Origin: a virus | Length of the DNA stretch: 44,606 nucleotides | Direction: 5' to 3' (one strand) | Virus record (IMG/VR): IMGVR_UViG_3300023239_000238 | Location: 1 to 44,606 of that record | In this document: positions 18,889 to 33,337 of the stretch, piece after piece | Numbering within the stretch: the first letter of the stretch is position 1 | Layout: every line of letters starts with the position of its first letter | Program-made: the position numbers and the translations under genes | Notes under the pieces: generated by a model | Told to the model about the DNA's origin: nothing | Seen by the model: only the letters and a program-made list of their open reading frames with translations | Databases searched by the model: none

Positions 18889-20295
18889 TTAGCCTGCCTT
18901 ACTTTTAAGTCCAGCTAACATTTGTTTTAGTTTTGTGCTGTCTACACCAGCATTTATCTTGGCAGATTCTTGTGGCTGACTAATTGTTGTAACACTGCTG
19001 GTGCTTTTTATTTGATCCATGATAGCTGATGGCTTTTGTCCACCAAATCCACCACTTTCACTTTGTCCTTCTTCACCTGGGTCTGTAATACGCAAGCTCT
19101 CTAAGTTAAACTCTAGGTCAACTTTTTGTCCTACACCACTACTGCTTCTAGTTTTCATCAACTGTATCTGATACCTACCACGTTCACGCATTGCACGACT
19201 TGTAAAAATACCAAACACATTATCTGCTGTGTTGATCTTACTGATACCACCCGATATGTGGCTGTGGTCAAATTCAATTTCTTCAACAGCACTACGATTC
19301 AACTGCGATGCTGTAATCATTAATATTTCAAACTCTTTTGCTAGGTTACGCAACTCTTCACTTACATACTTGTCTTTAACAAACAAATCACTTGGTGATA
19401 CTTTAGCACTAACTGGCATAACCAAGTCTAAGTAATCCACCATAATAAAGTCTGCTTTTTTTCCTGTCTGTACTTCTAGTTCTTTTAAGTATGCTCTAAT
19501 CTGATTAACATTGCTCTGTGCTGGCATGTACTTGATACGCAAGTTACCTGATTTCTTGCCTACCATACGTATCTTCATTTCGAGTGTGTCAAGGTCCTTG
19601 AATATTTCTTTGGTTGCAACATTAGCAACCATTGCATCCATACGCATAGCACACAGTTCTTCACTAAGTTCCAGTGTTAAAAACACACCGTTAAGTCCTT
19701 GACTTATCCAGTTGATAGCAATGTTCTGCATGAACAAACTTTTACCACTACCACTGCCACCTGCAAAAATGTTTAGCTCGCCTCTGTTCATACCACCAAA
19801 CAAGCGTCTATCCATAGTAGGCCAGCCTGTGCTGACTTGTCCGTTGTTATCCTTGATCTTCATAAGCCTTGCTCTAGGATCTTCGAAGTAGTCTGTACCC
19901 ATGTCCTTGGTAAGACTGATCTGCACTGCGTCTTTGATCAGTTTTTCAACTGGATCATACTCGCCATTCTCAATCATGTCCGCGGCTTTGAGGATAGCAC
20001 GTTCGAGTTCGTGCCTGCGACTAAAGCCTTCAAACTCTACCATGAACCAATCATAGTGTCCTTCACCAACGTCGGGCACTTCTTTAAGATCAACTCCTGT
20101 TTGGGCCAGTATCTGTTCCTTTGTGGGCATAGTTTTATATTCACTACTATGCTCCCTTATAAACTTAGCCGCTTCACGCAGACTTCGATCAAAGTTCTCT
20201 TCATTGAAAATGTTCTGCACACGCACAAATGTTTCTGCGTCCTGCATCATCATTTCTAAAAACAATTTTTGTATTTCTGCTGAATATTCTTTCAT
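18889..20295 (-). CDS. 41: replicative DNA helicase, T4 gp41/DnaB family
   Basis: This 468-aa RecA-fold hexameric helicase unwinds DNA 5'-3' at the fork with the primase. The N-terminal helical domain covers about residues 1-140. Walker A is GGSGSGKS (179-186), Walker B is DFIMVDYLDLV, and the sensor ITASQLNRSA follows. The C-terminal ~60 residues are Gly/Ser/Gln-rich, probably the primase or gp59 contact. A TATAAT box lies 7 nt before the ATG and no ribosome site is present, suggesting a leaderless start. The SDR and radical SAM genes separate it from primase gp61. Confidence 0.95.
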   Translation of the reverse strand: MKEYSAEIQKLFLEMMMQDAETFVRVQNIFNEENFDRSLREAAKFIREHSSEYKTMPTKEQILAQTGVDLKEVPDVGEGHYDWFMVEFEGFSRRHELERAILKAADMIENGEYDPVEKLIKDAVQISLTKDMGTDYFEDPRARLMKIKDNNGQVSTGWPTMDRRLFGGMNRGELNIFAGGSGSGKSLFMQNIAINWISQGLNGVFLTLELSEELCAMRMDAMVANVATKEIFKDLDTLEMKIRMVGKKSGNLRIKYMPAQSNVNQIRAYLKELEVQTGKKADFIMVDYLDLVMPVSAKVSPSDLFVKDKYVSEELRNLAKEFEILMITASQLNRSAVEEIEFDHSHISGGISKINTADNVFGIFTSRAMRERGRYQIQLMKTRSSSGVGQKVDLEFNLESLRITDPGEEGQSESGGFGGQKPSAIMDQIKSTSSVTTISQPQESAKINAGVDSTKLKQMLAGLKSKAG

Positions 20296-20308: not shown

Positions 20309-20954
20309 CACTAAAATTTTGAAAATTAATATCTTTATTTCCGTCAAGATAGATTACATTGCTGTTAAGTTCGTTTGTGTCCATACCTAATATTGTATCA
20401 ACGAACACGCCTGTGCTGGTTTGATTTTGGTCAAGTTCCATTGGATTTATTCCGCAAAAACAAGCATCGCCTGTTCTACTAAAGTTCTTCATTATCAAAT
20501 AGTTCTGATACTTATTACCAATATAGTCTGCATGGTTAATGTTTGTGTGCTGGTACACAAATGCAGACAACATCCAAGCCACTCTGGAGTTTTTATTCAA
20601 TGATACAGTTTTAATTATGTGATATGGTAGTATTACGCTAACAAAATACTGTTGTGTCCAATTCTTTTCTAGTCTCCATGTATCAATTACAGGAACTTCT
20701 TGATTAAAGTTGTCATAGCTTAATGCTGACCCGTTTTGGTTAAACAGTATAAAGTCGATAGTTGGTAACAATCTCAAGAACTTCTCTATAGTGCCTTGAT
20801 TAACTGTGTTCCAATCGATAATATGTTGATATAGATTATCTTGTTCTGCTAGTTTTGTACTTGATAAACTACACACTGTCCAGCCTTTGGCTAGTAGTTG
20901 CTGTTGTACAGTTAGTCCCCACTTGGACCCACATCCTAATAGTAATGCATTCAT
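20304..20954 (-). CDS. short-chain dehydrogenase/reductase-like protein
   Basis: This 216-aa protein has a Rossmann start (NALLLGCGSKWGLTVQQQL; the Gly pattern is altered from TGxxxGxG). A strand FILFNQNGS replaces the usual NNAG, followed by VAWMLSAF with a candidate Ser and YLIMK as the YxxxK catalytic pair. It is shorter than the usual ~250 aa, with a shortened C-terminus. It may oxidise or reduce a sugar or small molecule with NAD(P). It overlaps the upstream radical SAM gene by 4 nt, so the two probably share a substrate pathway. The two sit between the helicase and primase genes. Confidence 0.75.
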   Translation of the reverse strand: MNALLLGCGSKWGLTVQQQLLAKGWTVCSLSSTKLAEQDNLYQHIIDWNTVNQGTIEKFLRLLPTIDFILFNQNGSALSYDNFNQEVPVIDTWRLEKNWTQQYFVSVILPYHIIKTVSLNKNSRVAWMLSAFVYQHTNINHADYIGNKYQNYLIMKNFSRTGDACFCGINPMELDQNQTSTGVFVDTILGMDTNELNSNVIYLDGNKDINFQNFSV

Positions 20955-22081
20955 AGTTCTGTAAAAATATCTCGCCAGTTCGCACTTATTTTATCTGCGA
21001 ACGATTCAAAGAATGGTTCGTAATCTTCTTCTTTTGAATTTTGTAATTCTCCTAAGCAATTATCCAACTGTCCAATTAAGTTTTGATTGCAAGGAAAATT
21101 ATTTTTGTGGTTAATTATTTTTTCTGCACACTTGTCTTTAAGATCCTGCGACAAATTACGGCATTGTATGTTTGTGTGTCCCATAGTAACCTGATTGATC
21201 GTGAAATCAGTTATACCGTATCCGTTATTAAAGAACTGTTGTGTGTCTGTTAAGTAAAGTGCGCTGGCTACAAAAAATACAGAATTGACCCTAATGTCGA
21301 AATGTGTGCTCTTAAGGAATTGTAGATTGTTTAGGAACTTGTGCCAATTTGCGTCACGCCTGATATATTCAAATCTACTACCTGTTGTGTCAGCACTTAT
21401 GGTTATTAACACATTTTTAAACTTTAACAGTTCTGTGATCACAGGATTGTTCTGTTCAAACATCATGTTTGTGTTTACTCTAAAAGTGCAGTCAATTGAC
21501 TTGTCCAGTTGTTTCAGCAATCGTACGTTGTGTTTAATAAGTGTAGGCTCGCCACCACTGAGATATATTTCTTTCATGTGATGTTGTCTACTTACTATTA
21601 AATCAATGATTGTATCAGCCTGTTCATCTGGCGTATGCTGAATTGGTTTACCTTGTTCTTGTGCAATTGCGCTACTTTGTTTAGCCCAACATGTAACACA
21701 CTTCAAGTTGCAAGTACTACTCCAATGCAAATCAATAGCATTCAATTGAAATGCTGTATTGTCAGAATAATCTACATCTACATCTTTAAACATAGGATTA
21801 TATAAGTCACGTAAGAACTTATATCCTGTATCGCTTTCCTGTAGACTACATGTTCTACAGTTATAATTAGGCAATTCTTTATAAGTATTATTTCGCACAT
21901 GCTGTGCAGGCCAATCGTTAACAATGTCTTGGATAGAGTTATTACCTAGACGTCCCAGTTCGTGCTGTCCATTCACACATGTAACAATTCTGCCATCTAC
22001 CTCTACCTTAACATGATTCCACGGTACAGCGCAGAAAGTTTTAGATTGCTTAAACAAATAAAATTTCTTTTTGGGATCCAT
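20951..22081 (-). CDS. radical SAM protein with an N-terminal SPASM/twitch-like cluster domain
   Basis: This 376-aa protein has the core cluster motif CNLKCVTC (Cys124, Cys128, Cys131) and the SGGEPTL motif near residue 175, both firm radical SAM marks. The auxiliary-cluster cysteines normally found after the core lie here before it: Cys17 in FCAVPW, Cys35, Cys75 and Cys78 with a LGRLGNNSIQDIV stretch. This looks like a permuted SPASM/twitch arrangement. Such enzymes modify peptides or small molecules; the target is unknown. Its ATG overlaps the primase stop (TAATG) and its end overlaps the SDR start (4 nt). Confidence 0.92.
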   Translation of the reverse strand: MDPKKKFYLFKQSKTFCAVPWNHVKVEVDGRIVTCVNGQHELGRLGNNSIQDIVNDWPAQHVRNNTYKELPNYNCRTCSLQESDTGYKFLRDLYNPMFKDVDVDYSDNTAFQLNAIDLHWSSTCNLKCVTCWAKQSSAIAQEQGKPIQHTPDEQADTIIDLIVSRQHHMKEIYLSGGEPTLIKHNVRLLKQLDKSIDCTFRVNTNMMFEQNNPVITELLKFKNVLITISADTTGSRFEYIRRDANWHKFLNNLQFLKSTHFDIRVNSVFFVASALYLTDTQQFFNNGYGITDFTINQVTMGHTNIQCRNLSQDLKDKCAEKIINHKNNFPCNQNLIGQLDNCLGELQNSKEEDYEPFFESFADKISANWRDIFTEL

Positions 22082-23112
22082 TACCTGTACAGTCTCTTCT
22101 TCTTTAATTCAATTTTCAATCTACTTGTTTCTCTTGCTTCTAGTATGCTTTTTAACACAAACAACTTACCATACTTTACTGTTGCTTCGTTTAGATCTTT
22201 ACAAGTCTCTTGCCATACAGGAAAACTCACTGTCCATCCTGCTTCGATTGCACGATCCACTAGCTTTTTTCCTGCACGGTCTGTGTCTGGTACAACTATT
22301 ACTTCACGTTGTAGCCTATCAATTAATTCAACTTGTGTGTCACTTGCTTCACTGCCCTGTATGCTAACACCGTTAACGCTCATTGCATCAAACGGTCCTT
22401 CTACCACAACAACAAACTTTGAATCTTTGTATTGCTTGTCTAAATTAAACACATAGTCCGAAGGATGATCACTCCAGTACTTGGGTGTCACTGTGTCTTC
22501 TAATGCTCTTGCACTGCTTCCTACCAGTTTGCCTTCATGGTAGTACGGTACTATTATTCTACGATTATAATTGTATGCTTTGGTGTCAGAAAAATAAAAC
22601 TCATACTTGCTGGTATTGATTGCCCTGTTGGCCAAGTACTGTACGCCTTGTGTAAGATGGGGAGGAATCAAACAGGTATCATCTTCGATCATTCTTGTCA
22701 TCCAGGACGTTAAACTTACTGCGCCAGCGGGCATCTTTCTGGGCTCAAACTTGATTTCTTCTATTTTGGTTTTTTCAAGTTCTTCAGGTGCTACAAGTTC
22801 TTTCAACCTAACAGCACTTATAACCAAATGCCTTATTGTTAAGTCCTCGGCACCCAACCAAGATAACAGTTTTCTAAATTTAAAACCTAAATGCCAACCT
22901 GGTGTGAATCCTGTGGTAAAGCCACAGTTAAAACAATGATAAGATATTCCACCTTTGGAATCGGTTTTGACTCCTCCCCTGCCTTTACGATCTGGGGTTT
23001 CACCATTGTGTGTACAGCACACTGCGTTAAATGATATCCATCCTGTTTGCTGGCTTTTTCGATTGTCCGCAGGAATTAGTTGCAACAAGGCTTGCTGAAT
23101 AGTATCTAACAT
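22081..23112 (-). CDS. 61: DNA primase, T4 gp61 type
   Basis: This 343-aa primase lays RNA primers for the lagging strand with gp41. The N-terminal zinc-binding region has Cys32, Cys33 and His35, then CFNC (60-63). The TOPRIM core has VEGPFDAMSV with the catalytic Glu and VPDTDRAGKK with the metal-binding Asp residues. It is about the length of T4 gp61. A promoter with TTGGCA and TATAAT ends 6 nt before the ATG and no ribosome site is seen, so the transcript is probably leaderless. It starts the transcript primase - radical SAM - SDR - helicase. Confidence 0.94.
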   Translation of the reverse strand: MLDTIQQALLQLIPADNRKSQQTGWISFNAVCCTHNGETPDRKGRGGVKTDSKGGISYHCFNCGFTTGFTPGWHLGFKFRKLLSWLGAEDLTIRHLVISAVRLKELVAPEELEKTKIEEIKFEPRKMPAGAVSLTSWMTRMIEDDTCLIPPHLTQGVQYLANRAINTSKYEFYFSDTKAYNYNRRIIVPYYHEGKLVGSSARALEDTVTPKYWSDHPSDYVFNLDKQYKDSKFVVVVEGPFDAMSVNGVSIQGSEASDTQVELIDRLQREVIVVPDTDRAGKKLVDRAIEAGWTVSFPVWQETCKDLNEATVKYGKLFVLKSILEARETSRLKIELKKKRLYR

Positions 23113-23118
23113 TCAGTT

Positions 23119-23147
23119 ATTATACAGGATTATCGTACAGTTGCCAA
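23119..23147 (-). promoter_or_regulatory. sigma-70-type promoter of primase, leaderless type
   Basis: The -35 box TTGGCA (23142-23147) and -10 box TATAAT (23119-23124) are 17 nt apart. The -10 box ends 6 nt before the ATG at 23112. The -35 box lies inside the end of the desaturase gene. Confidence 0.7.
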
Positions 23148-23831
23148 GCCCAATAGGCTAAAAATCTTGATGTACATCCACCCAATATCAAACTCAAACA
23201 TTCGTGCGCTAAGTTTAGCACTGGCTGGGTTTTGATGGTGATTGTTGTGTAGCTCTTCGCCGCCAATTAATATACCCCATGGAACAATGTTGTTGCTTTG
23301 ATCTTTAGTATCAAAGTTACGATAGCCATAGTAGTGACCTAGTCCATTGATTACACCAGCGGCCCAGAACGGAATCCATATCATTTGGATCGCCCATACT
23401 GCCAATCCCCATGGTCCAAACAAAGCAAGGTCGATAGCTAGCATCAAAAGAATACCTATACGACTGTGTTTGGTATATACCCTGCGTTCCACCCAATCGT
23501 CAGGTGTGCCTGCGCCATATGCTTCAACCATGGCAAAGTTTTTGCTGGCTTGATGATAGAGTCGCGCACCATCAAACAATACTTTGTGCAATCCGCATAT
23601 TACAGGGCTGTGCGGATCGCCTTCTATGTCTGTGTGCCTGTGATGTTTACGGTGTACTGCTACCCACTGCTTAGTGACCATGCCTGTGGTTAGCCAGAGC
23701 CAAAACCGCATCATATGACTTACTACAGGATGAAAGGTTACTGATTTATGTGCTTGACTGCGGTGTAAAAACAAGGTTACGCAGGCAATGGTAATATGTG
23801 TTACCACAAGTGTAAAGATTAATTCTGTCAT
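23130..23831 (-). CDS. membrane fatty-acid desaturase
   Basis: This 233-aa protein belongs to the acyl-CoA/acyl-lipid desaturase family that inserts a cis double bond with a di-iron centre. Three His boxes are present: HRSQAH (23-28), HRKHH (60-64) and ELHNNHH near residue 196. The hydrophobic segments (about 4-20, 37-52, 125-145, 150-170) fit an integral inner-membrane enzyme. It is short for the family (usually ~300) but all boxes are kept. It is likely to change host membrane fluidity during infection. It starts 5 nt after the tail gene, without a ribosome site. Confidence 0.93.
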   Translation of the reverse strand: MTELIFTLVVTHITIACVTLFLHRSQAHKSVTFHPVVSHMMRFWLWLTTGMVTKQWVAVHRKHHRHTDIEGDPHSPVICGLHKVLFDGARLYHQASKNFAMVEAYGAGTPDDWVERRVYTKHSRIGILLMLAIDLALFGPWGLAVWAIQMIWIPFWAAGVINGLGHYYGYRNFDTKDQSNNIVPWGILIGGEELHNNHHQNPASAKLSARMFEFDIGWMYIKIFSLLGLATVR

Positions 23832-24837: not shown

Positions 24838-25215
24838 ATGGTTGACATAGACTACGAGAAACTATTAACAGATTATCCCTTCCTAACCTACTTAATATAT
24901 GGTAATAACGAATATATAGGGATAATTCAGAATGTAGATGACATAGTCACTACAATATACGATTATGGTGCCTTGAAAAGCGTTGAAGAAAAGCAAATAT
25001 TCTTAAAATTAGCTGATACATGGTGGTGGGAAAGTAATCGACTTATCCCTATAAACGTATTTTTAAAAGCAGAATGGCAGCCATTCAGAGTTGTTGTAAA
25101 AACTATGAACAGTAAAGGCGTAGAAATAAAATTTGGTCCGCAGATTAGTTTAAATTCGATATCGGCAAAACGCACAAAACGAAGAAGTATTACTCTTGTC
25201 CGGAAATTAAGTTAA
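24838..25215 (+). CDS. hypothetical late protein on the plus strand
   Basis: This 125-aa protein is not assigned. It has a helical N-terminus with aromatic residues (YEKLLTDYPFLTYLIYGNNEYIG), TWWWESNRLIPINVFLK and a strongly basic tail (SAKRTKRRSITLVRKLS). It is one of two plus-strand genes, and both have a TATAAATA late box upstream. Its last 26 nt overlap the 3' end of the converging DnaE-like gene. It could be an assembly or internal protein; the basic tail would suit nucleic-acid contact. Confidence 0.72.
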   Translation: MVDIDYEKLLTDYPFLTYLIYGNNEYIGIIQNVDDIVTTIYDYGALKSVEEKQIFLKLADTWWWESNRLIPINVFLKAEWQPFRVVVKTMNSKGVEIKFGPQISLNSISAKRTKRRSITLVRKLS

Positions 25216-25768
25216 TATTTACAGCAACCAAGTGCGCATAACTTACTGCGTGTGCTTTCTTAAAGTAATAACTATCATCAGTCGGCTTTTCCCACACAGT
25301 TTTTTCAACTCCAGCCCAGGGCTTGCCTATTAGGTGGCGTTTTGCAGGACGCATAACAGCCAAGAACATTGCCAACTTTTCAATTGCGTTGATCTTTTCT
25401 GGCATCTGCACAAGAGTGCTGTAGTGATTTCCTATGTGTATAAGTTTACTACAAAAATCTGGATCATATAAACTTTCCCAAACTGGTTCCTGTGCCATCA
25501 ATCGATCCAAGTGTGCTTCGTTTTTTATCTGTGAATACAATCCTACATTGAGAATGTCTAATTTAATGTACCCACGATCTTCTGCAGAGTCATGGTCGAT
25601 TGTAGCAAAGCCCGTAAATGGATCAACTGGAATATCAGTAAAGTATACACCTGTGTTATGTTTAACAAGACCGGTGTTACGCAATATACTAGCTGGAGTT
25701 TGTTTAAAATACTTCAGAGCTTTTACTCTATCACCTACATCGATATCAATATCACTGGTAAACTTCAT
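25190..25768 (-). CDS. miniature DnaE-like (C-family) polymerase palm domain
   Basis: This 192-aa protein matches the catalytic palm of bacterial Pol III alpha in the right order. SDIDIDVGDR (5-14) corresponds to the PDxDxDF motif with two metal-binding Asp. KHNTGVYF (36-43) corresponds to the HAAGVVI stretch, and YIKLDILNVG (67-76) to KxDFLGL with the third Asp (Asp71). A following helix MFLAVMRPAKRHL matches ALxRPG, and YYFKKAHAVSYAHL matches FNKSHAxxYA. PHP, thumb and tail domains are missing. A true polymerase of this size is doubtful; it may regulate replication or be a relic kept under selection. The start has an AGGAT site and overlaps the upstream gene by 4 nt. Confidence 0.75.
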   Translation of the reverse strand: MKFTSDIDIDVGDRVKALKYFKQTPASILRNTGLVKHNTGVYFTDIPVDPFTGFATIDHDSAEDRGYIKLDILNVGLYSQIKNEAHLDRLMAQEPVWESLYDPDFCSKLIHIGNHYSTLVQMPEKINAIEKLAMFLAVMRPAKRHLIGKPWAGVEKTVWEKPTDDSYYFKKAHAVSYAHLVAVNINLISGQE

Positions 25769-26445
25769 AATCCTGCTTCCGCTAACAAGTGTTTAGTCCA
25801 CTCTACATCACCCATGTAGTCAATAAACTTTCTATTCCAGTAGTCTGGATCAATCCAGGGGAGGATAACACTAATTTGATCATCCCCAAGAGTAGATAAC
25901 CAATCCACACCGGAAACACAATTAAACACAATCCAAGGACTAATGCGCCCGGTACTGATATGATGGCAAATCCTATTAGCATTACCATACCGAAAATAGT
26001 CTTGGAACCCCGCAAGTCCCGAACCGTTGCTTGCATAATCTTCCATGGTTTTAAGAGCACGTTCAAGAGCATCCTGTACTGCCTCCTTCTTTAAGTATTC
26101 ACGCATCCATTCATCATAAAAAACATCTTTTGTCCAGTAGTCTAGTTTCTTGTTATTTTTCAATAACCAAGTTGTGTAATTTTGTATGTTGAGGCATTTG
26201 ATGTTAACACAATGCCTGCCAAATTTTACAAATGCCTTGTAGTATGGACTGGTTATAAAGTCTGCATAACTTTTGTTTTTTGCACTGCCCTGTGTTGTTT
26301 CGAAAAACTGCAAGTAAGCTCTAAGTCCAAACTGCACACCTGTTTCTTTTTCCTGTTGCCATCGTCGCTTGGGCTCACAGAGATGTGCCGCAAGTGTTGA
26401 TTCCTTGCGATAACTCTTACTACAGTACTTACAGGTGTAACTCAT
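25765..26445 (-). CDS. C2H2 zinc-finger protein
   Basis: This 226-aa protein begins with one C2H2 finger, CKYCSKSY...TLAAHLC (Cys4, Cys7, His20; the last ligand may be Cys22). The remaining ~190 residues are helical, with aromatic residues (KFGRHCVNIKCLNIQNYTTWL, LPWIDPDYWNRKFIDYMGDVEW) and no known domain. It probably binds nucleic acid in replication or transcription. It lies directly upstream of the DnaE-like gene with a 4-nt overlap, so the two are translated together and may be partners. Ribosome site AAGGAA. A nested open frame with a strong ribosome site lies at 25803-26072. Confidence 0.8.
   Translation of the reverse strand: MSYTCKYCSKSYRKESTLAAHLCEPKRRWQQEKETGVQFGLRAYLQFFETTQGSAKNKSYADFITSPYYKAFVKFGRHCVNIKCLNIQNYTTWLLKNNKKLDYWTKDVFYDEWMREYLKKEAVQDALERALKTMEDYASNGSGLAGFQDYFRYGNANRICHHISTGRISPWIVFNCVSGVDWLSTLGDDQISVILPWIDPDYWNRKFIDYMGDVEWTKHLLAEAGL
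25803..26072 (-). CDS. possible nested gene for an 89-aa membrane peptide (doubtful)
   Basis: Inside the zinc-finger gene, in another frame, an ATG at 26072 is preceded by AAGGAGG (26082-26088) at the ideal 9-nt distance. The product would have two hydrophobic helices (about residues 28-48 and 50-67), a holin-like plan. It may also be chance, because the ribosome-site bases code for Lys-Glu-Ala in the host gene and the hydrophobicity could be a shadow of the frame. It is listed because of the exact spacing. Confidence 0.25.
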   Translation of the reverse strand: MLLNVLLKPWKIMQATVRDLRGSKTIFGMVMLIGFAIISVPGALVLGLCLIVFPVWIGYLLLGMIKLVLSSPGLIQTTGIESLLTTWVM

Positions 26446-29925: not shown

Positions 29926-30733
29926 TTATGGTAAACCTGTTCCTTATAATGTCCGCATACCTATCTGCTAGATATTCTTGACTTTGTTCTGCACCATGGT
30001 ATCCTGGGTCTTCACCCGAGAACGGATATTCATTGGTTGCATACGCTGGCGTGTCTTCAAACTTGAGTGTAAAGTGTTGATCTGGTATCGAAGTAGGAAA
30101 GTGATCTCTAACCATGTCACTGGTCCATATATTACATGCCACCAACAAGAAAGGGATCTTGTAATAGTGTAACTGCATGATGCCATCACGTATGATCCAC
30201 CTGTCTTGTTGTAGTTTCCAGTTACTGTCGTACATGAAGTTAATGTATTGTCTTACTGCCTGGTTTGTATTCTTGTCTAACTGCTGACTACGGTAATGAT
30301 GATCATAGTTTTCTGCTAAACTAAAAATAGTTTCTGATATCATTCTGTAGTTGTTGTTACCCCAGTTGATATTGTTAACTCCTGCCGCTGGATCATAACC
30401 TGTGCCGTGATCAGTTTGCAGGTGTTGCTGTAGGTCACTGTTCCACCCTTTGTTTTCATTCTTAGGTGCTACATAAGGGGCGGCACCTCCTGGTATTTCC
30501 ATCCTGTCAGCGAACGTGGGTGCTACTATAGCAAAGTCTGGCTTTTGGCGTAGTATCTCATCTACCATTACACGTATGCCGCCATTGCTCATGCCTTGAC
30601 GTGCCAGGTGTACCAAATCCCAATCCAGCTTGGCCGCTAGTTTTTCACCCCAGCTGGTTCCTAGTAGTGCAGGGTCTGTACTGGGCGCACTGAAACTGCA
30701 CCCTGTGATCATTAGTTTTTTTCTTATTGCCAT
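29918..30733 (-). CDS. SGNH-hydrolase-like protein
   Basis: This 271-aa protein opens KLMITGCSFSAP (block I; Ser near residue 13), followed by LARQGMSNGGIRV (block II/III Gly and Asn). The DPGYHG near residue 242 resembles block V. It is a closer match to SGNH hydrolases than the 26429 gene. It may de-esterify a glycan or lipid made or modified by the glycan cluster. It lies between UvsW and the PRMT-like gene with overlaps of 10 and 8 nt, so it is part of the replication operon transcript. Confidence 0.78.
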   Translation of the reverse strand: MAIRKKLMITGCSFSAPSTDPALLGTSWGEKLAAKLDWDLVHLARQGMSNGGIRVMVDEILRQKPDFAIVAPTFADRMEIPGGAAPYVAPKNENKGWNSDLQQHLQTDHGTGYDPAAGVNNINWGNNNYRMISETIFSLAENYDHHYRSQQLDKNTNQAVRQYINFMYDSNWKLQQDRWIIRDGIMQLHYYKIPFLLVACNIWTSDMVRDHFPTSIPDQHFTLKFEDTPAYATNEYPFSGEDPGYHGAEQSQEYLADRYADIIRNRFTIND

Positions 30734-32178
30734 TCTGTTTTCTCCACGGCAAACGGATAGTTTGCATCTCGATAAAATGCTTTACGTTTAGTCAGGTGTC
30801 TTTTTGCGAACTTGCAGGTACTGGTTATGTCCCAGATCTGTACGAAGTCTTTGTCTTGGGCTTTACGAATACCCCTACCAATTGACTGGATAACCCGTAC
30901 AAAACTTTTACCAGGCTCAATGAGAACCAGATTAAAAATACGGGGAATGTTAATGCCAACACTAGCAACGCCATAGGTGGCGATGATGATCTTACCTTCT
31001 GCCTCTGCCACTTCGTCATAATGTTCTTTTCGCTCCAATGCTTTGGTTGCACCTGACACAAATACACTACCGGGCAAGCGTGAGTGTAGTTCTTTGCCTG
31101 AGTTTATTCTGTCTACTAGAATAAGTGTATTACCTGTGTCTGTAATTTTACTTATCATTTCTGAAATGTAGTCTAAACGATCGCTGTTCTCCAGCAGATA
31201 CTTTAACTCACTTTGGTAGTTGGTGTATTCAGTATGGTCGACTAACTGTACAACATTAACATGGCACATAGCCAGGTGTCCTGCTTCCTGTAGTTCACGT
31301 GCGCTTAGTTGTCCAATAACAGGTCCCAAGTTGCAGAATATACTCATGAATTCAAACTGCTCTTTGGGTATTGTGCCGGTTAGTCCCCAACGGATTGGGA
31401 TACATCCCATAGGTCCACTCAGCAGTGTTTTAAGTGCGTCTGCTTTAGCACCGTGTACTTCATCAACAATAACACCAACAACACCTTCTAAGAACTCGCC
31501 TATAGTAATATCTGCTTCTGCGTTCCTAGTTTGTTTAAGCATGTTGTTGAGGCTTTGCCAAGTACATATTGTGTGCAGCCGACCAAACTCTTTTCTATCG
31601 CCATAGTAAACACCAACGTCCAGGTCCAAGTTAACAAAGTCTTCTTCTGTCTGTGTAACCAAGCTCTTGTTGGGCACGATAATAATAGTGCGGCCGTACT
31701 CACCAACCTTGTCAGCAAGTGCCGCAGTCATAATAGTTTTACCTGCGCCTGTTGCTACTTCTTGTACGCACTGGGGGTTCTTTAAGAAGCCGTTAATCAA
31801 TTCAACTTGGTAGTCCCTGAGTTCTATTGGTTCACCAACCTTGGGATGATTCTTGGGCCATACTTTGTGTGAGTAACTTTGTTCATTTACTTCTGTAAAG
31901 TCAAAGTTAGTTCTGTAGTCTCTGAGGTCTTCTACTTCAAGATCGTAACCTTGTTCATCTAGATACGGAAGTATCTCTGGTAATATATTAATGTAGGTGC
32001 TACCGCCAAGATTAAAGAATGGCACTTTACCATCCCAGCGTCCTAGTCTGACTGCTGGTTGATAACGTGCGCCAGGAACATCAAACTTATACTTGCGCAC
32101 CAATGCCGTCCTGGTACCAAGTTCTAGTCCTTCGATCTTTACATTAACTTCATCTTTAATTATTAACTTGGCTTTCAA
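30724..32178 (-). CDS. uvsW: UvsW-type DNA/RNA helicase
   Basis: From the TTG at 32178 (ribosome site AAAGGAAAA) the product is about 484 aa, beginning at KAKLIIKDE. It is an SF2 helicase that rewinds forks, unwinds R-loops and drives branch migration in the switch to recombination-dependent replication. Walker A is ATGAGKT, the DExH box is VDEVHG, motif III is GLTGT, and motif VI is QSIGRGIRKA. The N-terminal ~100 residues are the UvsW DNA-binding domain (RLGRWDGKVPFFN). A longer frame to 32268 overlaps the upstream gene by 89 nt and is rejected. Confidence 0.95.
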   Translation of the reverse strand: MKAKLIIKDEVNVKIEGLELGTRTALVRKYKFDVPGARYQPAVRLGRWDGKVPFFNLGGSTYINILPEILPYLDEQGYDLEVEDLRDYRTNFDFTEVNEQSYSHKVWPKNHPKVGEPIELRDYQVELINGFLKNPQCVQEVATGAGKTIMTAALADKVGEYGRTIIIVPNKSLVTQTEEDFVNLDLDVGVYYGDRKEFGRLHTICTWQSLNNMLKQTRNAEADITIGEFLEGVVGVIVDEVHGAKADALKTLLSGPMGCIPIRWGLTGTIPKEQFEFMSIFCNLGPVIGQLSARELQEAGHLAMCHVNVVQLVDHTEYTNYQSELKYLLENSDRLDYISEMISKITDTGNTLILVDRINSGKELHSRLPGSVFVSGATKALERKEHYDEVAEAEGKIIIATYGVASVGINIPRIFNLVLIEPGKSFVRVIQSIGRGIRKAQDKDFVQIWDITSTCKFAKRHLTKRKAFYRDANYPFAVEKTEWQ

Positions 32179-32179
32179 T

Positions 32180-33337
32180 CTATTTTCCTTTGTATGTATT
32201 GTACACTTCTGTAGCAAAGAACACAACCTTTTCTGCACGTTGCAACAATAAAGTTTTTTCTGCACCATGCATCATGCCAGCACTGGTTACTAACAAAGGA
32301 ATATCCTGTGGCCAGTGTGAACGATATTTGGTAAAGTACACAACCTTTTTGTCTGTTGTGTCGATAGGTTCATTGTTACGTGGTGCAAATAATACCTCAT
32401 CTTCGTTAAAATAACCTAACACAAACTTATCGCGTAGTCTGTTACTAAGGTCTGGTTCGTATACATAAACTGGTAATCTTTCTGTAACCTGTGCATAGAC
32501 AAATAGTGCATCCAGCACTTCTTTGTTGGCATCTGGGTTGTAGTTTACATGATTACCTTTTAGTAGGTTAAACAAGCGTGTGCTTTCAAACTTTTTCAAG
32601 AACAAGTCTTCAACTTGCTGACTCACTAAGAAATAGCACACACCAGCCAGATCGATAACTTTTATTAAGTTGTTGATAGTTATGTCTCCTGCTTTCTTGG
32701 TCACAAATTCTAACAGCGATGCAGGGGCATTACGAATAACCAACTGAGTGTCCACAACATCCAACTGTACGTGTTGTGGTTTAGTCTGCGTTATCTTTTT
32801 CTCAATATCAAACAGTTGTGAGTCAATTTCAAAATCATGATGCCTCGCAATAAACATTGTAGCGGCTAAGTTGGGCTCTGTTAGTGCTATGCGCCACTGT
32901 TTGGTTTCTTCATTATGAAAACGCCAACTACCGCAACTGATCTTAGTAGCATCTCTAACCATGTCAACAATCTTAGGTTCAAAAGAAAACTGTAGTACTA
33001 TTTGGTCTTGCTCTAGCCACATCATTCGTCTGCGATCAATTGTACGCAAAGGCTTTCTGTACTGGGGATTTTCAACAGGAGCAACGTCTACTCTTTTTGC
33101 CTCCAATTGTCGTTTGTATTTTAAAATCAGTTTGCAAGCCAGTTCGGCCTGCTTGTCTGTTAACCCTTGTCCCCCGCGGACACTTGTGGCCATGCTGTTA
33201 ATTACTCTAACATCATACCTAGCCAAACTGATTATGGGCTCTATCTTCCCGAACATACCGTAGTACTTGTTGGTTACCGGATCCCTGTCACCATTTATAA
33301 TTTCTAAGTAATCTTCAACGTAGGTAAATTTTTGCAT
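32180..33337 (-). CDS. hypothetical protein with a possible HARP-like segment
   Basis: This 385-aa protein has no clear enzyme motif. Residues 108-170 (VLQFSFEPKIVDMVRD, SWRFHNEETKQWRIAL) follow the FxY..li..ik/W.f..eet..W pattern of the HARP domain that partners SMARCAL1-type helicases. This is a pattern match only. The C-terminal half has an alternating α/β layout (KKVVYFTKYRSHWPQDIPLLVTSAGMM) and ends GK. It lies directly before uvsW (1-nt gap) and has a promoter with a very short leader, so it begins the uvsW operon. Confidence 0.75.
   Translation of the reverse strand: MQKFTYVEDYLEIINGDRDPVTNKYYGMFGKIEPIISLARYDVRVINSMATSVRGGQGLTDKQAELACKLILKYKRQLEAKRVDVAPVENPQYRKPLRTIDRRRMMWLEQDQIVLQFSFEPKIVDMVRDATKISCGSWRFHNEETKQWRIALTEPNLAATMFIARHHDFEIDSQLFDIEKKITQTKPQHVQLDVVDTQLVIRNAPASLLEFVTKKAGDITINNLIKVIDLAGVCYFLVSQQVEDLFLKKFESTRLFNLLKGNHVNYNPDANKEVLDALFVYAQVTERLPVYVYEPDLSNRLRDKFVLGYFNEDEVLFAPRNNEPIDTTDKKVVYFTKYRSHWPQDIPLLVTSAGMMHGAEKTLLLQRAEKVVFFATEVYNTYKGK

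Follow-up and report, generated by a model that had tools for sequence, protein, structure and literature searches.

The 192 amino acid product of one gene in the window, which is the whole 44,606-nucleotide stretch of virus record IMGVR_UViG_3300023239_000238 that was analysed, is a member of an already known family, the C-terminal subunits of split minimal DNA polymerase III alpha (phrog_11778). It makes up the C-terminal half of a module of two proteins; in its relatives the gene for the other half lies elsewhere in the same genome, at some distance. We think it probable that the two chains constitute a minimal C-family polymerase, a small nucleotidyltransferase working at the primase-helicase end of the replication fork beside a PolB replicase, to which the 192 amino acid protein contributes the metal-binding half; the physical assembly of the pair, its catalysis and the step that it serves are what we infer from sequence, and what the data show is the homology, the split site, the conservation of residues, the co-occurrence of the halves, the gene neighbourhood and the purifying selection. 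A split minimal Pol III alpha was reported for T4-type jumbo phages with PolB (group 2.2) by Iyer et al. 2021 (PMC7824862). Since theirs is the same system in the same kind of phage, the presence of this gene is not unexpected, as the preliminary description had held it to be. What is newly added here is the split site at residue level, the division of the active site, figures for co-occurrence and neighbourhood, an estimate of selection, and the break site in the DnaE of phages phiST and BS-TP1.

The product, read from the minus strand at 25190-25768, begins with MKFTSDIDIDVGDR. A profile search assigned it to phrog_11778, annotated as "DNA polymerase" (3.5e-59, residues 4-190 of 192). With the single sequence as query, neither Pfam nor NCBIfam nor the PDB gave a DnaE match, and an hmmsearch with the family profile against the PDB missed DnaE too. 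Because single-sequence searches miss it, the resemblance required a stronger test; the link to DnaE is visible only via profile-profile comparison, Pfam scans of orthologues and the fold search. Among the orthologues of this half, two score above the curated cut-off of Pfam DNA_pol3_finger, and six of the seven matches to this domain in these genomes fall on the C-half gene, with only partial coverage of the fingers.

The preliminary description had picked out five strings in a 192 amino acid ORF, in a stated order, as counterparts of the DnaE palm motifs. All five were found again, in that order, when the translation was re-read, and a full-length realignment with hhalign places every motif identically. 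The family profile scored 45.2 against DnaE, represented by six full-length sequences, compared with at most 25.9 for column-shuffled controls (n=60) and 21.5 for the reversed profile. The DxDxD, HxxG, KxDxL, RP and FxKxHxxxY motifs are all present. In a family alignment of 44 diverse members, the farthest of which is 33% identical to the 192 amino acid protein, 15 residues are invariant in 44/44 (D6, D8, D10, H37, G40, P47, K69, D71, L73, W97, R140, P141, K143, H173 and Y177). Twelve of these 15 are conserved DnaE motif residues, corresponding in E. coli numbering to D401, D403, D405 (D6, D8, D10), H511 and G514 (H37, G40), K553, D555 and L557 (K69, D71, L73), R639 and P640 (R140, P141), and H760 and Y764 (H173, Y177); eleven are also invariant across the six-sequence DnaE alignment. 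For the twelve mapped residues the spacing within each motif is identical to that of DnaE. The sole mapped position that is not invariant is F169 (F756), which differs in two of the 44 members. D401, D403 and D555 are the active-site aspartates of E. coli Pol III alpha, and H760 is its steric gate, a role assigned by modelling (PMC8485763). The claim that the three metal-binding aspartates are kept thus extends to the whole alignment, none of the 44 members having lost one.

The fold prediction leads to the same family. The AlphaFold (AF2) model of the 192 amino acid protein has a mean pLDDT of 92.2, and every one of the best ten Foldseek matches in the PDB is a Pol III alpha-type polymerase, with a probability of 0.98-1.00 for eight and modest TM-scores by query of 0.40-0.51. 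High-probability matches in the viral set are, where named, DnaE-type phage polymerases. Profile comparison, AlphaFold model and Foldseek agree, and together point to a protein of the Pol III alpha type, all of the convincing PDB matches being of this type.

The palm is strongly shortened. About 26 residues stand in place of DnaE 406-510 and about 27 in place of 642-755, gaps which in the alignment coincide with the thumb and the fingers. The protein has only a small part of the fingers, no thumb, PHP, HhH, clamp-binding or OB region, and no Pfam match; that the PHP, thumb, β-binding and OB domains are gone had been correctly noted for this ORF. An enzyme stripped of these domains and of most of the fingers should be distributive. 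Also lost are the finger arginines R709 and R710 and most of the surface that contacts DNA.

The GRGS nucleotide-binding motif is also missing from the 192 amino acid chain. Its first residue lies only five before D6 (D401), which means that the protein lacks the part of the palm that precedes it, GRGS included. This part is carried in jumbo phage CBB by CBB_328 (172 amino acids), whose C-terminal end reads ...GLGRGSSVSSYCLYLIGLHLVDSIKYELDVNEFLKW; Atu_ph07 gp316 is presumably the counterpart in that phage. The N half corresponds to phrog_11127, is about 170 amino acids long and bears the GRGS motif. It matches DNA_pol3_alpha at 2e-8 to 5e-9 and DnaE with an hhalign E-value of 3e-9, and aligns to residues 322-392 of E. 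coli DnaE. As the N half ends at about residue 392 and the C half begins at about 400 in DnaE numbering, one palm has been cut between these two positions. No fused N-C ORF occurs among 80 C-half and 16 N-half loci. The N-half model, built from an alignment of only 14 sequences, has a pLDDT of 71 and gave no significant fold match; its quality is too low for it to be used. The preliminary description of a miniature DnaE palm therefore stands with respect to the C-family catalytic palm; it is not self-contained, the GRGS-bearing half (phrog_11127) being encoded elsewhere in the relatives.

In the N half the position of DnaE R390 is occupied by Glu, and this, together with the missing R709/R710, leaves the template dependence of the split pair in doubt. 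Instead of copying a template, the two halves together might act as another kind of nucleotidyltransferase with a Pol beta-like site, such as an end-tailing enzyme or one that modifies proteins or nucleotides. Almost nothing is left of the thumb and fingers, by which duplex and template are held, while the residues of the chemistry are kept; this agrees with such an enzyme, as does the loss of R709/R710 and R390. We nevertheless judge it unlikely, since the invariant steric-gate histidine (H760), which screens the sugar of the incoming dNTP, and the replication neighbourhood favour DNA synthesis.

The two halves nearly always occur together in the phage records listed. Using tblastn, both were found in 58 of the 60 listed phage records with a C half, and a profile search raised this to 59 by adding Slicko01; the 60th is a 109-kb partial record, shorter than phages of its kind. 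All of the complete phage genomes listed retain the N half, and both halves also lie on eight large IMG/VR environmental contigs. The spacing from N to C half ranges from 11 kb (Slicko01) to 182 kb (Atu_ph07) in named phages and is approximately 85-104 kb in environmental contigs G002, G016 and G017. With the halves so far apart in relatives, an N half lying outside the 44.6-kb fragment is expected. A neighbouring gene as the missing palm half was ruled out, there being no GRGS-type ORF and no profile match within the 44.6-kb window.

The C half is a conserved working gene under strong purifying selection. The dN/dS ratio of the window gene was 0.07-0.11 against the five relatives with measurable dS, and most other informative pairs behaved alike. 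The protein shows 33-49% identity to members from isolated phages. Relatives are encoded in at least 600 stretches of viral contigs, and the full motif series was kept at 79 of 80 loci examined, the exception being interrupted by the end of its contig. An origin in living bacteria was considered and rejected, for in a bacterial and archaeal genome set of 84,980 species a relative was found on only two MAG contigs, which are likely misbinned phage. The preliminary description had seen in the protein a palm relic, or else a decoy for the host clamp. A DnaE origin and the many missing domains would suit a clamp decoy or the decaying remains of a dnaE taken from the host, but we find either hardly credible: the strong purifying selection and the invariant active site mean that this is not a relic, the relatives are numerous, no complete phage genome on the list lacks the partner half, and the clamp-binding region which a decoy would use is absent, the catalytic residues being what stays conserved.

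The gene lies among replication genes (Table 1), in agreement with the replication operon named in the preliminary description. A primase and a DnaB/gp41 helicase are found downstream of the polymerase half in the window, CBB, PA5oct and RaK2, and a helicase is annotated downstream also in Vibrio 2.275.O, SCTP-2 and Slicko01. A homolog of the UvsW-type helicase was seen at 52 loci, and in CBB, XacN1 and SCTP-2 a clamp loader lies a few genes from the N half. The tie of the split pair to the replisome through gene position is circumstantial.

Table 1. Features of the window in and around the gene for the polymerase half.
Feature	Position	Strand	Basis or remark
C-terminal (metal-binding) half of split minimal DNA polymerase III alpha, 192 aa, phrog_11778	25190..25768	-	ORF, profile and alignment
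DIDID, residues 6-10, equivalent to DnaE D401-x-D403-x-D405; contains two catalytic Asp of the three	25739..25753	-	Alignment to E. coli DnaE; codon arithmetic
KLD, residues 69-71, equivalent to DnaE K553-x-D555; third catalytic Asp	25556..25564	-	Alignment to E. coli DnaE; codon arithmetic
FKKAHAVSY, residues 169-177, equivalent to DnaE FNKSHSAAY (756-764), containing the steric-gate H760	25238..25264	-	Alignment; codon arithmetic
C2H2-like zinc finger protein (N-terminal finger), 226 aa, phrog_11058	25765..26445	-	Directly upstream; 4 nt overlap with start of polymerase half
Convergent gene, 125 aa, phrog_11637	24838..25215	+	3' end overlaps 3' end of polymerase half by 26 nt
DnaG/Toprim-type primase	22081..23112	-	Downstream of polymerase half
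DnaB/gp41-type replicative helicase	18889..20295	-	Downstream of polymerase half
UvsW-type helicase	30724..32268	-	Upstream, same replication neighbourhood; by reading and annotation of the syntenic RaK2 gene

Two genes accompany the polymerase half closely. Homologs of the zinc finger protein (phrog_11058) were present at 90 of 93 loci, at a median offset of -642 bp, and in 11 of 12 large records, and this protein is a candidate accessory subunit of the polymerase half. Homologs of the convergent gene (phrog_11637) were present at 88 of the 93 loci examined; a convergent gene occupies the same place in CBB, Atu_ph07, PA5oct, Vibrio 2.275.O, SCTP-2, RaK2 and Slicko01 and lies one gene further on in XacN1. 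Even between jumbo phages with less than 50% identity in the polymerase half, the tail-to-tail order is found again, a constancy that is unusual for two such genes.

Two further ORFs on the minus strand of this region may be mentioned. That at 23130-23831 (233 amino acids), among the replication genes, reads like a membrane fatty-acid desaturase with histidine-box motifs, and a homolog was found at only four of the loci examined. The other, at 20951-22081 (376 amino acids), lies between the helicase and primase genes, contains a radical-SAM-like CNLKCVTCW motif and was seen at only one of the loci examined.

The constant company of primase and helicase genes, together with the very small size and the lack of stand-alone processivity parts, might also suit a replisome subunit with a structural or regulatory task and no catalysis of its own, which has kept a DnaE-like fold for binding nucleotide or DNA. 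We consider this quite unlikely, as the catalytic Asp, Lys and His are all invariant even in members less than 40% identical, and a role in binding only would not normally preserve all three metal ligands.

The window was earlier assigned to a T4-type phage, and its relatives do carry a family-B polymerase. None was found on the 44.6-kb fragment; as neither the N half nor PolB is on this record, their presence in this phage is judged from the relatives. Of 29 related records, 19 have a PolB, among them each of the ten examined that come from isolated phages. Both halves, but no detectable PolB or PolA, are found on four contigs of 100-260 kb (G019, G020, G021 and G023; loci L142, L143, L144 and L141, respectively), which might reflect missing sequence or a different replicase; the company of PolB may accordingly not be universal. 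These four contigs would suggest that, in some of the phages, replication depends mainly or wholly on the split pair. Such a role appears very unlikely, however, since the four records are linear and possibly incomplete, PolB is present in all ten isolated-phage records examined, and the split pair has no processivity parts.

The system described by Iyer and co-workers, with members in CBB, RaK2, GAP32, 121Q, Atu_ph07, PA5oct and others, is like the present one in its family and, as judged from the relatives, probably also in the division into a nucleotide-binding N half and a metal-binding C half, in the distant loci and in its occurrence in PolB-type phages. The 192 amino acid protein differs in coming from a fragment of an uncultured phage, within a large environmental clade, and in having its partner gene outside the fragment. 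The passages in which CBB_328, the N-half partner, and Atu_ph07 gp316 are named "truncated DNA polymerase III alpha" (PMC5259590, PMC6102473) draw no link to a second half. The literature searched, which lay mostly outside subscription journals, yielded no later functional work and no activity or interaction data on the split pair.

With bacterial DnaE and PolC the pair has in common, in unchanged order, the Asp triad, K553, the H760 steric gate and the RP and HxxG motifs. In contrast to E. coli DnaE it comprises two chains rather than one, approximately 360 amino acids in total against 1160, and is without PHP, thumb, full fingers, HhH, clamp-binding motif, OB and CTD. The DnaE of Cellulophaga phage phiST and of Bacteroides phage BS-TP1 is broken at the same place, between FERFL and PDxDxDF, with a C-terminal piece seen for phiST only; the pieces are otherwise full-size, with PHP in the N piece and fingers and HhH in the C piece of phiST. 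In phiST (NC_020842; L184:2368-5968) two adjacent ORFs correspond to positions 5-396 and 398-883 of TIGR00594, and BS-TP1 gp3 (L099:1825-3558) is the N piece of a broken full-size DnaE. Both N pieces have an extra tail of about 60-80 amino acids that looks, on reading, as if it belonged to a split intein, but neither Pfam nor NCBIfam recognises it as one.

Returning to the two-chain polymerase that we prefer, the N and C chains would probably associate non-covalently and so rebuild a single Pol beta-like active site. The phrog_11127 partner would supply GRGS, and the 192 amino acid protein D401, D403, D555, K553 and the steric-gate His, such that the core catalytic set would combine the nucleotide-binding loop of the N chain with the metal ligands and steric gate of the C chain. 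The enzyme would then make short stretches of DNA, in primer extension, gap filling or repair, on that side of the fork where primase and helicase work, next to the main replicase of family B. More tentatively, judging from sequence, the pair may be an active, template-dependent C-family polymerase of two chains and about 360 residues, with no thumb, hardly any fingers and a size below that of all others in its family, which would start or finish pieces of DNA in jumbo phages replicating with PolB; it may descend from a DnaE first broken between FERFL and PDxDxDF by a phiST-like split element.

With the exact split site and the assignment of residues, two small proteins suffice for testing. 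If active, the pair would define the minimum machinery of a bacterial-type replicative polymerase, with one replicase active site shared by two separately encoded proteins, in giant phages that pair a bacterial-type with an archaeo-eukaryotic-type polymerase.
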